Positions 42,898-46,462 of a DNA stretch of 64,000 nucleotides are shown in pieces. Made by a program: the position numbers and the translations under genes. How positions within the stretch are numbered: position 1 is the first letter of the stretch; each line of letters begins with the position of its first letter. The notes beneath the pieces are model-generated. The model did not search any database. It was not told where the DNA came from and saw only the letters and a list, made by a program, of their open reading frames with translations. This stretch comes from Paludibacter sp. (GTDB lineage Bacteria > Bacteroidota > Bacteroidia > Bacteroidales > Paludibacteraceae): contig JAQTUE010000006.1 of assembly GCA_028710415.1 (NCBI GenBank), positions 1 to 64,000 on the forward strand, given 5' to 3'.

Positions 42898-43040
42898 AAA
42901 CCCTTATTTTTCTTTATTTATTCCCTTCGTAGAAAATCCTAACACCTCAGAACCCACCCTTATTCACTAATTTAAATTATTAACATACTGTGTTATAATT
43001 AGGGAATAAGGGTGAGATTTAGAGGGCTAATTTTTTCTAC
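42898..43040. repeat. MITE-like palindrome, left part, interrupted by IS110
   Basis: Starts AAACCCTTATTTTTC. It contains CCCTTCGTAGAAAATCC, the centre, AGGGAATAAGGGTGA and AGAGGGCTAATTTTTTCTAC, in the same order as the copy at 46121-46291. Similarity stops exactly after CTAC at 43040 and resumes as TAAGGATG at 44646. Confidence 0.8.
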
Positions 43041-43107
43041 TTCTATGTTGTAATCCAAATTTCAAGAATATTATTATGTATTATTAATATTTTATTCAAA
43101 TACTTAT

Positions 43108-43115
43108 TATCTTTG
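43108..43115 (+). promoter_or_regulatory. -7 box of a structured RNA inside the IS element
   Basis: TATCTTTG matches TAnnTTTG. Transcription would begin at about 43120, the first base of the outer stem of the RNA described next. Confidence 0.55.
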
Positions 43116-43119
43116 TTAT

Positions 43120-43228
43120 CAGAAAGATGAAGAGGAAATAGGCTCTGCTGGGGAGCAACCTATCAGCAATAATCTTTCTGCGTTATACAGTAAATTAGAA
43201 GGGGATGGCAATTTGCTGTCCCTTTTTT
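43120..43228 (+). ncRNA. Candidate structured small RNA with pseudoknot and terminator
   Basis: An outer 9-bp stem CAGAAAGAT (43120-43128) / ATCTTTCTG (43172-43180) encloses a hairpin ATAGG (43138-43142) / CCTAT (43159-43163). The loop sequence TGCTG (43146-43150) can pair with CAGCA directly after that hairpin (43164-43168), giving an H-type pseudoknot. A terminator stem at 43202-43222 with six T residues ends it. A promoter box precedes it. I do not recognise a known family. It runs opposite to the transposase gene. Confidence 0.55.
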
Positions 43229-43324
43229 ACTTTACTGGTTTCGCTTTATGGTCTAATAAAACCCAATCATTAATTTTGAAAAACATCTAGTAAAGTATGA
43301 CTTCAATTTTTAAAAACCTACCAA

Positions 43325-43370
43325 ACAACCTTCTATAAGTAGACTGATGCTACAATTCCCTGTTTTAGTT
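43325..43370 (-). ncRNA. Candidate donor-binding hairpin of the IS110 guide RNA
   Basis: On the minus strand an inner stem GTAG/CTAC with loop CATCAGT is flanked by internal-loop strands CAGGGAATT and TTATAGAAGG. The second is complementary to CTTCTAT at the element's left end (43040-43046). The first shares AGGGA with the right end (ATAGGGAC, 44638-44645). This follows the target hairpin in the same order as in known bridge RNAs. The matches are shorter than for the target hairpin. Confidence 0.5.
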
Positions 43371-43379
43371 AGTAAGTAA

Positions 43380-43437
43380 GAAATGCCACAGACTAAGGTA
43401 AGCAGACAAAGCTGCAAGTAGAAAAAGTGGTCATTTC
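43380..43437 (-). ncRNA. Candidate target-binding hairpin of the IS110 bridge RNA / seekRNA
   Basis: Outer stem GAAATG-CCAC / GTGG-CATTTC with one bulged base, inner stem GCAG/CTGC with loop CTTTGT. The internal loop strands on the minus strand are TTTTTCTACTT and TTACCTTAGTCT. The first equals the left half of the insertion site plus core (TTTTTCTAC, 43032-43040). The second is complementary to core plus right half (ACTAAGG, 44644-44650). It begins six bases after the transposase stop codon. Confidence 0.75.
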
Positions 43438-43443
43438 TAATTT

Positions 43444-44607
43444 TTATTTAGTTTGGAGGTGTAACTTGACAATTCTTGGCTCATATTTTATTTCGTTTTT
43501 TAAAACAGTATAAATTCTGTTTGAAAGTTTACGCGCTATTCTTACTATTGCTTTATTTGAATCCATCCGCTTGCAATAATCTGAAAAAGCTTTACTTAAA
43601 GCTGGATCAATTGATGCTGCTTTCCAAGCACATTCAATTAAGGCTGTTCGCAAAAAGTTATTACCACGTGGTGTCATTTCACCCTTTCTTTCAACCTCTC
43701 CGCTTGAATGACAATTTGGTACGATCCCAATCAGGCTTGCAAATTTATCTTCATTTTCAAAACGTTTTATATCTTCAATTTCTATTAAAAATAGAATTCC
43801 CGTAATCATACCTATTCCAGGAACGCTTCTTATCAATTCCATTTTCTTAAAATAGGCTTCACTTTGTGATAATGCCTTTATCTTTTTTGTAGTTATTAAC
43901 AATAATGCTCGTTGTTGTTCTGCTTGGTTTATTAAAAAATTCAAAGCACTTGTTCCGCTATCATATTGAAATCTAATTTCTTTTAACCAATTCATGAAAC
44001 GATTAGACCAATGTGTACTAGATTTTTGAAATTCATTTGGGAATTTTATACCATAATAATAAAGCATAGCCTTGATTCGCAATTTCAAACGTACCAAATC
44101 TTTGACTATAGAGCCGCGGACTCGTATTAAAGATCGATTCTCCATTGTTTCCTGACTTGGTGTAAAGATTCCTTGTAATTCATTGGATCGAAGTGAACGA
44201 CCCAATTTATTGCTATCAACTTTATCTGTCTTGTGCATTTTTTCTTTACCTGTTATTGGTACATCTACAGGATTTACTACAATATTATCTATTCCTAATC
44301 CTTTCAATTTATAATGAATCCATAAACCGCTAAATTCAGCCTCATAAACTGAATGATAAATCCCATTTGGGAAATTCAATCTCAAATAATCAGATAATAC
44401 TTCAGCCACTGCTGGTTGTTGAAAAGTCTTATGATGTAAGTTTTCTGTAAATATAGATACATTCCAACTCTTCAAATGGACATCAATTCCAATGAATATA
44501 TTTTGTCCTTCAAAATTTAATTCTTTATTTTGTGTTTGCATAAGTCCTTGAGTTTTATGTTTTAAGTTTACTATCTCAAAATTATAATACTCTTGTGACT
44601 TATGCAA
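43444..44607 (-). CDS. IS110-family DEDD transposase / bridge-RNA-guided recombinase
   Basis: 387 residues from the first ATG. The ATG 22 codons later (44541), giving MQTQNKELNFEGQN, has AAGGA just upstream and may be the true start. The N-terminal RuvC-like DEDD domain shows GIDVHLKSW, YEAEFSG and HKTDKVDSNKL. The C-terminal transposase_20 domain shows SVPGIGMITGILFL and CHSSGEVERKGEMTPRGN with the conserved serine. These recombinases insert circular elements at sites chosen by an RNA with separate target and donor loops. The reading frame is intact, so the element may still be active. Confidence 0.93.
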   Translation of the reverse strand: MHKSQEYYNFEIVNLKHKTQGLMQTQNKELNFEGQNIFIGIDVHLKSWNVSIFTENLHHKTFQQPAVAEVLSDYLRLNFPNGIYHSVYEAEFSGLWIHYKLKGLGIDNIVVNPVDVPITGKEKMHKTDKVDSNKLGRSLRSNELQGIFTPSQETMENRSLIRVRGSIVKDLVRLKLRIKAMLYYYGIKFPNEFQKSSTHWSNRFMNWLKEIRFQYDSGTSALNFLINQAEQQRALLLITTKKIKALSQSEAYFKKMELIRSVPGIGMITGILFLIEIEDIKRFENEDKFASLIGIVPNCHSSGEVERKGEMTPRGNNFLRTALIECAWKAASIDPALSKAFSDYCKRMDSNKAIVRIARKLSNRIYTVLKNEIKYEPRIVKLHLQTK

Positions 44608-44711
44608 TTTTTAATTGCATTTTATTCTTCTACAAACATAGGGACTAAGGATGCCAGAACAAAAATAAGGGTATATGACAAATTGGTTAATAGGTTAATT
44701 TGGTTGATAAA

Positions 44712-45915: not shown

Positions 45916-46462
45916 TTGGTTAATTAAGTTGATTGGTTAAATAGTTGATTAAGTTGATTAAGTTGATTAAGTTGATTGAGTTAATTAAGTTGACTAAGTT
46001 ATTATTCCAATAGCAGAATACTTCAATCCCAATAACACGGAACGCAGAACACAGAACGCGGAACTTTGAATGCTGAACCTTAAACCTCAAACTCCAAACT
46101 TTTCAAACAATATTTCTTAAAGCCCTTATTTTTCTTTATTTTTCTTCCCTTCGTAGAAAATCATGCCACCTAAGAATCTGCCCTTATTCCCTTATTAAAT
46201 ACCTATTATACTGTAAAATAATTAGGGAATAAGGGTGAAGTTTAGAGGGCTAATGTTTTCTACTAAGGGTCGGGGACAAAAATAGGGGTTTATCTTAAAG
46301 TGGTTAATTCGTTGATTAAGTTGATTGGTAGATTCGTTGATTAAGTTAATTAAGTTGACTAAGTTATTATTCCAATTGCAGAATACTTCAATCCCAATAA
46401 CACGGAACACGGAACGCAGAACACGGAACATTGAATGCTGAACTTCAACCTCTTCAACCTCT
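45916..46462. other. Two low-complexity elements around a full MITE-like palindrome
   Basis: 45905-46110: GTTGATTAAGTTGATT words, then TTATTCCAATAGCAGAA, CTTCAATCCCAATAA, GGAACGCAGAAC words and AACCTCAAACTCC words. 46121-46291 is the MITE. 46295-46470 repeats the same modules in the same order, ending at the stop codon of the leftward lyase gene. Confidence 0.75.
46121..46291. repeat. MITE-like palindrome, full copy with an unoccupied IS110 target
   Basis: Left arm CCCTTATTTTTCTTTATT and CCCTTCGTAGAAAATC, right arm AGGGAATAAGGGTGAAG, AGAGGGCTAATG and ACAAAAATAGGGGTTT. It contains TTTTCTACTAAGG at 46256-46268, matching the target read from the IS110 guide hairpin in 13 consecutive bases. Confidence 0.75.

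Follow-up and report, generated by a model that had tools for sequence, protein, structure and literature searches.

Introduction

Guide systems in which an RNA directs an insertion sequence to its site are already known from IS1111 and IS621 (PMC11187229, PMC11208160). Members of the IS1111 group are described as having subterminal inverted repeats of 7-17 bp (PMC11208160) and a protein of 330-350 aa with the motif GL-P----S(t)G. In their RNA, the match to the top strand of the target lies 5′ of the match to the bottom strand (PMC11187229).

Here we describe an element found in a window of 64,000 nucleotides from Paludibacter sp. (assembly GCA_028710415.1, contig JAQTUE010000006.1, positions 1 to 64,000 of the forward strand). 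We are nearly certain that it is an IS110-family transposon of the IS1111 group, inserting by means of a guide RNA from the region 3′ of its transposase gene. In addition, its right end holds what looks, from predicted features, like a small-RNA gene opposite to the transposase (about 43108-43228, plus strand).

Results

An IS1111-group element inserted in a dispersed repeat

The element occupies 43041-44645 on the minus strand (1605 bp), with the core AC at 43039-43040 and 44644-44645. Its ends were set using 20 uninterrupted copies of the target repeat together with the ends conserved among relatives. Relatives with recognisable ends have, with small changes, the same left end GTCCCTATGTTTGTA and the same right end ...ACAACATAGAAG; outside these shared ends, the flanking sequences of the relatives differ from one another. 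The subterminal inverted repeats CTATGTTGTA (right end, 43043-43052, plus strand) and CTATGTTTGTA (left end, 44631-44641, minus strand) match over 10 bases with one additional T in the latter, a length within the range given for the IS1111 group. An alternative boundary that makes CTACAAACATAGGG part of the target (this sequence is repeated in locus L002) was rejected because relatives keep CTACAAACATAGGG as the element end and intact repeats are found without it.

The element encodes a DEDD transposase/recombinase (43444-44541, minus strand) of 365 aa counted from a conserved ATG. Its membership of the IS110 family, proposed in the earlier note from the letters alone, is borne out by a match to NCBIfam NF033542 (IS110-family RNA-guided transposase; 185.5 bits for a cut-off of 140), and the Pfam domains PF01548 and PF02371 both exceed their cut-offs. 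While the listed open reading frame begins at an upstream TTG, the start is likely the ATG at 44541, because four relatives (L007, L008, L009 and L011) have stops just before the matching ATG. The motif of the IS1111 group appears as GIVPNCHSSG, and at 365 aa the protein is longer than the range given for the group. Residues D20, E67, D106 and D109, which we take to be the DEDD residues, are invariant among 11 aligned transposases. Residue 69, within YEAGF, is Gly in the other 10 proteins and Glu in the window; judging from this substitution, the window copy of the transposase may therefore be impaired or inactive. The only solved relatives found by sequence are IS621 (E 6e-8) and ISCro4 (E 2e-8), both through weak, C-terminal matches (residues 217-354).

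The element interrupts a repeat, whose left part TTTTTTCTAC (43031-43040, plus strand) and right part TAAGG (44646-44650, plus strand) were identified by repeat comparison. Written out with the AC core, the target sequence is TTTTTTCTACTAAGG. The 12-mer TTTCTACTAAGG is found at at least 35 exact places in the host genome, compared to about 1 or 2 expected from an estimate based on base composition. With one mismatch there are 79 forward and 71 reverse places, compared to 56 and 33 for a reversed control pattern. The joined flanks TTTTTTCTAC^TAAGG resemble all 20 uninterrupted repeat copies that were fetched, the nearest being L185, L186, L190, L191 and L198. Beyond the shared 12-mer, the left flank beats all 50 shuffles in 20/20 copies and the right flank in 17/20. 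The window itself contains an uninterrupted copy at 46257. Because the uninterrupted copies resemble the joined flanks, we take TTTTTTCTAC^TAAGG, within a dispersed intergenic repeat, as the site and 43041-44645 as the element; the ends implied by the flank coordinates of the earlier note are thus supported by empty sites (20/20 copies). The empty site contains AC once: as in the IS110 family, the site is specific, the core is shared and the target is not duplicated.

The repeat itself has a wide distribution. In the window TTTCTACTAAGG is found at 46257-46268, 42924-42935 and 46148-46159, and it is present on many host contigs, often with an inverted partner TTTCTACGAAGG about 60-110 bases away, an arrangement that resembles paired REP-like repeats. 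In another repeat copy (locus L002 1501-1530; contig C69 25442-25471), a piece of about 25 bases of the left end is found at the same junction and passes directly into repeat sequence, the remainder of the element being missing. Read by eye, this piece seems to be the remnant of a second insertion.

Target loops change together with insertion sites

The predicted core of the bridge RNA/seekRNA is found at 43313-43436 (minus strand), downstream (3′) of the transposase gene, which ends at 43444; the earlier note had put it on this side of the gene, as in IS1111. The downstream region is long: counted from where the stop codon begins up to and including ...ACAACATAGAAG, it has 407 bases, compared to 104 bases upstream of the ATG. 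Long noncoding sequence and a guide RNA downstream of the gene are the arrangement of the IS1111 group. Two of the relatives (L126 and L131) have, by eye, a similar small open reading frame of about 75-80 codons between the donor loop and the right end, possibly a passenger gene.

The RNA core consists of a target-binding hairpin followed by a donor-binding hairpin, with covariation in an alignment of relatives (A2). In transposase orientation, the 5′ arm of the target loop, TTTTTCTAC (43426-43418, minus strand), is complementary to the target's right half and the 3′ arm, CCTTAGT (43398-43392, minus strand), copies the left half. This loop was the starting observation of the earlier note. Its claim that the left flank plus core (TTTTTCTAC at 43032-43040) is identical to the 5′ arm is correct to the base, and the complementarity it reported between CCTTAGT and core plus right flank (ACTAAGG at 44644-44650) holds as well. 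The 5′ arm as first written, TTTTTCTACTT, agrees with the flank over the first 9 of 11 bases. The chance of matching 9/9 and 6/6 bases at fixed positions is about 2e-9 given AT-rich base frequencies, a figure uncorrected for the choice of place in the RNA, for which the margin is nonetheless ample. The arms also follow the IS1111 order, with the segment that would pair with the top strand located 5′ of the one that would pair with the bottom strand.

We collected related elements from genome searches (matches in 14 of 199 genomes, 11 of 48 of the genus and 15 of 393 of the order, each count of matches including the own genome), from the best 80 of 366 coding stretches from named genomes and from three loci of viral contigs. 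Searches with the transposase protein gave no match in plasmids and, with a single transposase protein, no match in viral contigs. The resulting 131 loci correspond to 91 distinct elements, 50 of them with both ends recognised. A first regular expression for the bridge RNA found 10 elements and a looser one parsed 59 of 82 distinct right-end stretches. Three of these (L015, L128 and L131) were removed as misplaced, leaving 56 elements in alignment A2; the 23 unparsed right ends, mostly from Bacteroides, Alistipes and Dysgonomonas with a different donor hairpin, are outside the 56. Another nine elements without a recognised end were left out of the guide test (n = 47), which scored nine positions of the 5′ arm and eight of the 3′ arm. 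A one-base linker before TGCRG was left free, equally in own and swapped pairs.

Of 799 guide positions, 635 agree with the flanks of the element itself, while swapping flanks between elements gives a mean of 340 (sd 13) and a maximum of 397 in 10,000 permutations, figures that overstate the significance because related elements are not independent. The own site is strictly the best for 29 of 47 guides and among the top three for 45. Agreement varies along the arms. Positions 1-4 of the 5′ arm match in 94-98% of elements and the ninth position in 51%; positions 3 and 4 of the 3′ arm match in 100% and 96%, compared to 26% with swapped flanks. Positions 1-2 of the 3′ arm are invariant in every element and are therefore uninformative, matching swapped flanks also. 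The IS1111 arm order is the one scored in all 47 elements, with the target taken in transposase orientation. The poorest fits of the 5′ arm are found in L084 (3/9, with 5/8 in the other arm) and L125 (4/9, with 7/8 in the other arm), followed by L005 and L042 (5/9 each) and L004 (6/9).

Two other versions of the test point the same way. An earlier anchored test, in which 10 of 50 elements were unparsed and several were one base off register, gave 467 own matches for a permutation maximum of 312, with the own site the unique best for 24 of 40. A free longest-common-substring comparison of guide and flank gave 636 for a permutation maximum of 557, which is significant but noisy. The check proposed in the earlier note, whether loop changes track insertion sites, accordingly comes out in its favour (635/799 own matches, permutation maximum 397), and the joint change of loop and site in 47 elements supports its proposal that one hairpin reads both halves of the target. 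The opposite pattern, an unchanged loop at unrelated sites, is no rule among these 47 elements, in which loop and site change together, with poor fits on one arm in L084 and L125.

Donor loop and fold of the guide RNA

The donor loop is located at 43330-43362; like the repeat nature of the target and the opposite-strand module at the right end, it is absent from the earlier note. Its 5′ arm CAGGGA (43357-43362, minus strand) is complementary over AGGGA to the left end GTCCCTATG, and its 3′ arm ATAGAAG (43330-43336, minus strand) is identical to the right end CATAGAAG. From these arm matches, both hairpins read the right half and then the left half in transposase orientation, which is the IS1111 order of PMC11187229. 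The 5′ arm follows the variants of the left end (CCCTATG, CCTTATG, CCGTATG, CTGTATG and others). Over 53 elements, of which 27 share one left end, it matches at 223 positions, with two of the seven positions hardly ever matching; permutations give a mean of 182.5 (sd 4.1) and a maximum of 200, so that none of 10,000 reaches the observed value. The 3′ arm is near-invariant in A2, too constant for a permutation test.

Both hairpins are supported by covariation. Changes on both sides are seen in 26 of the 27 pairs among the 56 elements of A2, where shuffling gives 16.6. Pairing holds in 92.5% of cells, which falls to 80.5% on shuffling, and the covariation score of 0.452 drops to 0.233 on shuffling and to 0.06-0.14 when the partners are slid. 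On the transposase strand, G-U pairs (97) outnumber A-C mismatches (17), as expected if this strand is the RNA. Taken alone, the window bridge RNA folds no better than shuffled sequences (-18.9 kcal/mol, z -0.5).

The target being a dispersed repeat of the host genome, its sequence is common around the element, and the loop might be a fossil copy of an always-used repeat, captured by the element and guiding nothing. We consider this highly improbable: the loops of relatives match many different sites, per arm and in register, and the stems are conserved around loops that change. What the compared sequences themselves show (a transposase gene, element ends, an empty site, an RNA fold that covaries, loops that vary jointly with target and donor) points instead to insertion by a guide RNA. 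In such a mechanism, the transposase and the RNA encoded just 3′ of its gene would form a recombination complex. In transposase orientation, the 5′ arm of the first hairpin would pair with the top strand right of the core and the 3′ arm with the bottom strand left of it, while the second hairpin, arranged like the first, would read the circular donor at the junction of its two ends. The strands would be exchanged at the AC core common to donor and target, which is GT on the minus strand, and the element would thereby enter the TTTTTTCTAC^TAAGG repeat without duplicating it. From the published family we take by analogy that the transposase binds an RNA made from this region, that the intermediate is circular and how the chemistry proceeds.

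A predicted small RNA gene at the right end

In 36 of the 50 elements with both ends, an extra conserved stretch is found between the donor loop and the right end, which we call the module; the other 14 are without it. Twelve of these 14 are among the 47 guides tested, and their guides match the flanks at 11 to 17 of 17 positions. The module is therefore not needed for targeting.

In the window, the module contains a predicted -7 box TATCTTTG (43108-43115, plus strand), which fits TAnnTTTG, the -7 consensus of the main Bacteroidota sigma factor (sigma-ABfr; PMC7366714). It is followed by a predicted small RNA of about 109 nt (43120-43228, plus strand), supported by fold energy, a covarying core of 18 pairs and a match to our model R2 at 43113-43184, and by a predicted intrinsic terminator (43198-43229, plus strand) in which a hairpin precedes TTTTTT. 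These are the features of a small RNA gene in Bacteroidota (-7 box, structured RNA and intrinsic terminator), with mixed evidence as to the strand.

Of 74 distinct copies, 50 have the exact TAnnTTTG at a distance of 28-48 bases ahead of the core, compared to a mean of 2.1 and a maximum of 6 in 200 shuffles that preserve base content only; one of the 74 (a second place in L046) is probably no true copy. The opposite strand of the same stretch has it in 5 copies. In a wider set, 41 of 80 copies have the box (shuffles: mean 2.2, maximum 7). Judged by a criterion of our own, 60 of 74 copies have a hairpin and T run resembling a terminator, compared to 3 of 74 on the transposase strand, and with so few the module was rejected as a sense-strand transcription terminator. 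A general terminator scanner called no terminator in the window; in L152 it called one, on the transposase strand.

The fold energy of the small RNA strand in the window is -40.2 kcal/mol (z -3.7); the other strand, taken over slightly more sequence, gives -31.5 (z -1.9). For the 18-pair core, the covariation score is 0.487 versus 0.208 and changes on both sides are seen in 239 versus 78 cells; 14 pairs have such changes, a number reached by 44 of 500 shuffles. All these counts come from copies related by descent and are not independent events. Over 71 copies, the covarying helices read on the strand opposite to the transposase gene have 90 G-U pairs versus 32 A-C mismatches (74 versus 25 in helix 1, 16 versus 6 in helix 2), or 69 versus 32 without the outermost pair. 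Two further column pairs of alignment A4 (31/47 and 25/53), which hardly covary and are omitted from the opposite-strand structure, would in 70 and 42 of 71 copies form G-U pairs if the transposase strand were the RNA, where the other strand would have A-C; the G-U versus A-C signal is therefore not decisive for the strand. We nonetheless consider it likely that the module is read opposite to the transposase gene. In L039, L091 and L139, the small-RNA core or parts of it look duplicated near the right end.

The module is found beside several transposase families

A first model of the module (R1) matched in 30 of 149 related genomes. Among 22 of its matches examined away from or beside IS110 genes, several lie where an IS3 or IS256 transposase gene ends. 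The second model (R2) has a match at E <=1e-6 in 59 of 393 genomes from the order and at E <=1e-5 in 9 of 395 from the phylum, with up to 7 matches in one genome. Among 80 distinct copies, 42 have a transposase upstream on the expected strand: an IS256 variant in 20, IS3 in 11, IS110 in 9 and IS256 in 2. The median distance from match end to core is 97 bases for the IS256 variant (maximum 610), 115 for IS3 (maximum 942), 327 for IS110 (maximum 365) and 192 for IS256 (maximum 192).

For 17 of the 80 copies there is too little sequence to judge the neighbour; another 21 offer at least 600 bases but show no reference transposase. A profile search with upstream frames of 12 of these 21 orphans found no transposase; eight frames match other families above cut-off (for example xanthine dehydrogenase, PBP4, IPP isomerase, ketopantoate reductase and a restriction specificity subunit), one matches DUF4382 below cut-off and three match nothing, two of the three having been compared with NCBIfam only. 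The orphans L141 and L208 share an end resembling ACCAACTATTTTTGGCATCATTAC, and L140, L151, L154 and L171 have a similar one; by eye, these copies may be remnants of IS256-type elements. The near-identical modules L166, L168 and L174, for which no transposase was found, have shared flanks next to different neighbour genes in two genomes and are possibly a miniature mobile element.

A plasmid search with module DNA returned a single 45-base match. Eight viral sequences match the module pattern. Two of them (L202 and L206) have the promoter box at the usual distance, L199 and L201 end at a contig edge and the remaining four are chance-like. An Rfam search with 20 loci found two tRNAs only, and the module matched no family at gathering score; for 43100-43280 of the window, the best hit is rli61 with 23.4 bits for a gathering score of 50. 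A literature search over titles and the beginnings of abstracts gave, among the papers listed, no account of the module, although one may exist. The passages of PMC2864571 on Bacteroidetes motifs, which list one named Transposase-resistance without further account, do not describe the module.

Possible roles of the module

Our preferred reading, to which we give about even credence, is that elements of at least three unrelated transposase families in Bacteroidota (IS110/IS1111, IS3 and IS256) share a small RNA gene that has a promoter box and terminator of its own, lies tail-to-tail with the transposase gene and is absent from Rfam 15. A near-invariant segment GCUCUGCUGNNGAGCAAC in the module fold is common to several IS families, which argues for one common binding factor. 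The most economical guess is that the module is a transposon control element, in which the convergent small RNA and its terminator at the tail of the transposase gene would limit read-through or block transcription entering backward from outside. The module (43108-43264) might also be an insulator only, a terminator against backward transcription from outside into the transposase gene that produces no free small RNA. The opposite-strand terminator-like hairpins (60/74 copies) fit such a role, as does the position of most of the 42 transposase-linked copies close behind the gene, and the exact TAnnTTTG is absent from its place in 24 of 74 copies and in 39 of 80 of the wider set. Nonetheless a bare terminator needs neither a promoter box at a fixed distance (50/74 copies, at most 6 in shuffles) nor a covarying, partly invariant hairpin upstream, and we hold the insulator to be unlikely.

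We rank marginally lower, as also unlikely, a module that acts within the transposase mRNA on the minus strand; it might, for instance, form a pseudoknot at the 3′ end that controls stability or the end of translation. Such a role would account for the A4 columns 31/47 and 25/53, which are G-U on that strand in 70 and 42 of 71 copies, for a U-G pair present in 47/47 in the minus-strand RNAalifold structure and for the position of the module directly at the stop codon when it occurs in IS3 and IS256 elements. By eye, moreover, the conserved start motif GGTTTTYTTAGSCATA can pair with a conserved loop segment, TATTGCTGA or TATNCCTGA; in L147, for example, AGGTATAA can pair with TTATACCT. Against it, the covarying helices favour the opposite strand (G-U 90 versus A-C 32), and so do fold energy and the promoter and terminator signals. 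In the window (and in relatives), GGTTTTYTTAGSCATA is found at 43240-43264 on the minus strand, and its pairing with the loop would span the terminator hairpin.

Discussion

The 47 natural pairs of target and guide come from a Bacteroidota branch of IS1111 and should help to learn the pairing rules and to find recombinases from these bacteria. If the shared small RNA gene is real, the module would be a common control or protection unit of Bacteroidota mobile elements, swapped between families. And if it is transcribed, one small RNA would be common to unrelated insertion sequences, which raises the question of the common need it serves.

Among described systems, the seekRNA of IS1111 elements (ISEc11, ISPa11 and ISKpn4; Siddiquee et al. 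2024, PMC11187229) has, as here, an RNA located 3′ of the gene, inverted repeats in subterminal position, two short segments that match the target in the same arm order, and sites that differ between members. Unlike in the account given there, the donor loop is visible here in the next hairpin, where it follows changes of the left end; an opposite-strand module is present in many members and the transposase is somewhat longer (365 aa). The bridge RNA of IS621 (Durrant et al. 2024, PMC11208160) likewise has a target loop and a donor loop, and each of them reads the two halves flanking a two-base core; in the IS110 group to which IS621 belongs, the RNA is described in the left end, the opposite order relative to the gene (PMC11187229).

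ISPpu9 of Pseudomonas putida, with its RNAs Asr9 and Ssr9 (PMC8450116), is also reported to insert at one position in a dispersed palindromic repeat and to have both a downstream sense RNA and an antisense small RNA, as predicted here. Asr9 is described as antisense to the 5′ UTR upstream of the gene, whereas the module is found at the 3′ end. Unlike what is reported for ISPpu9 in that source, the predicted antisense RNA recurs here in other IS families.
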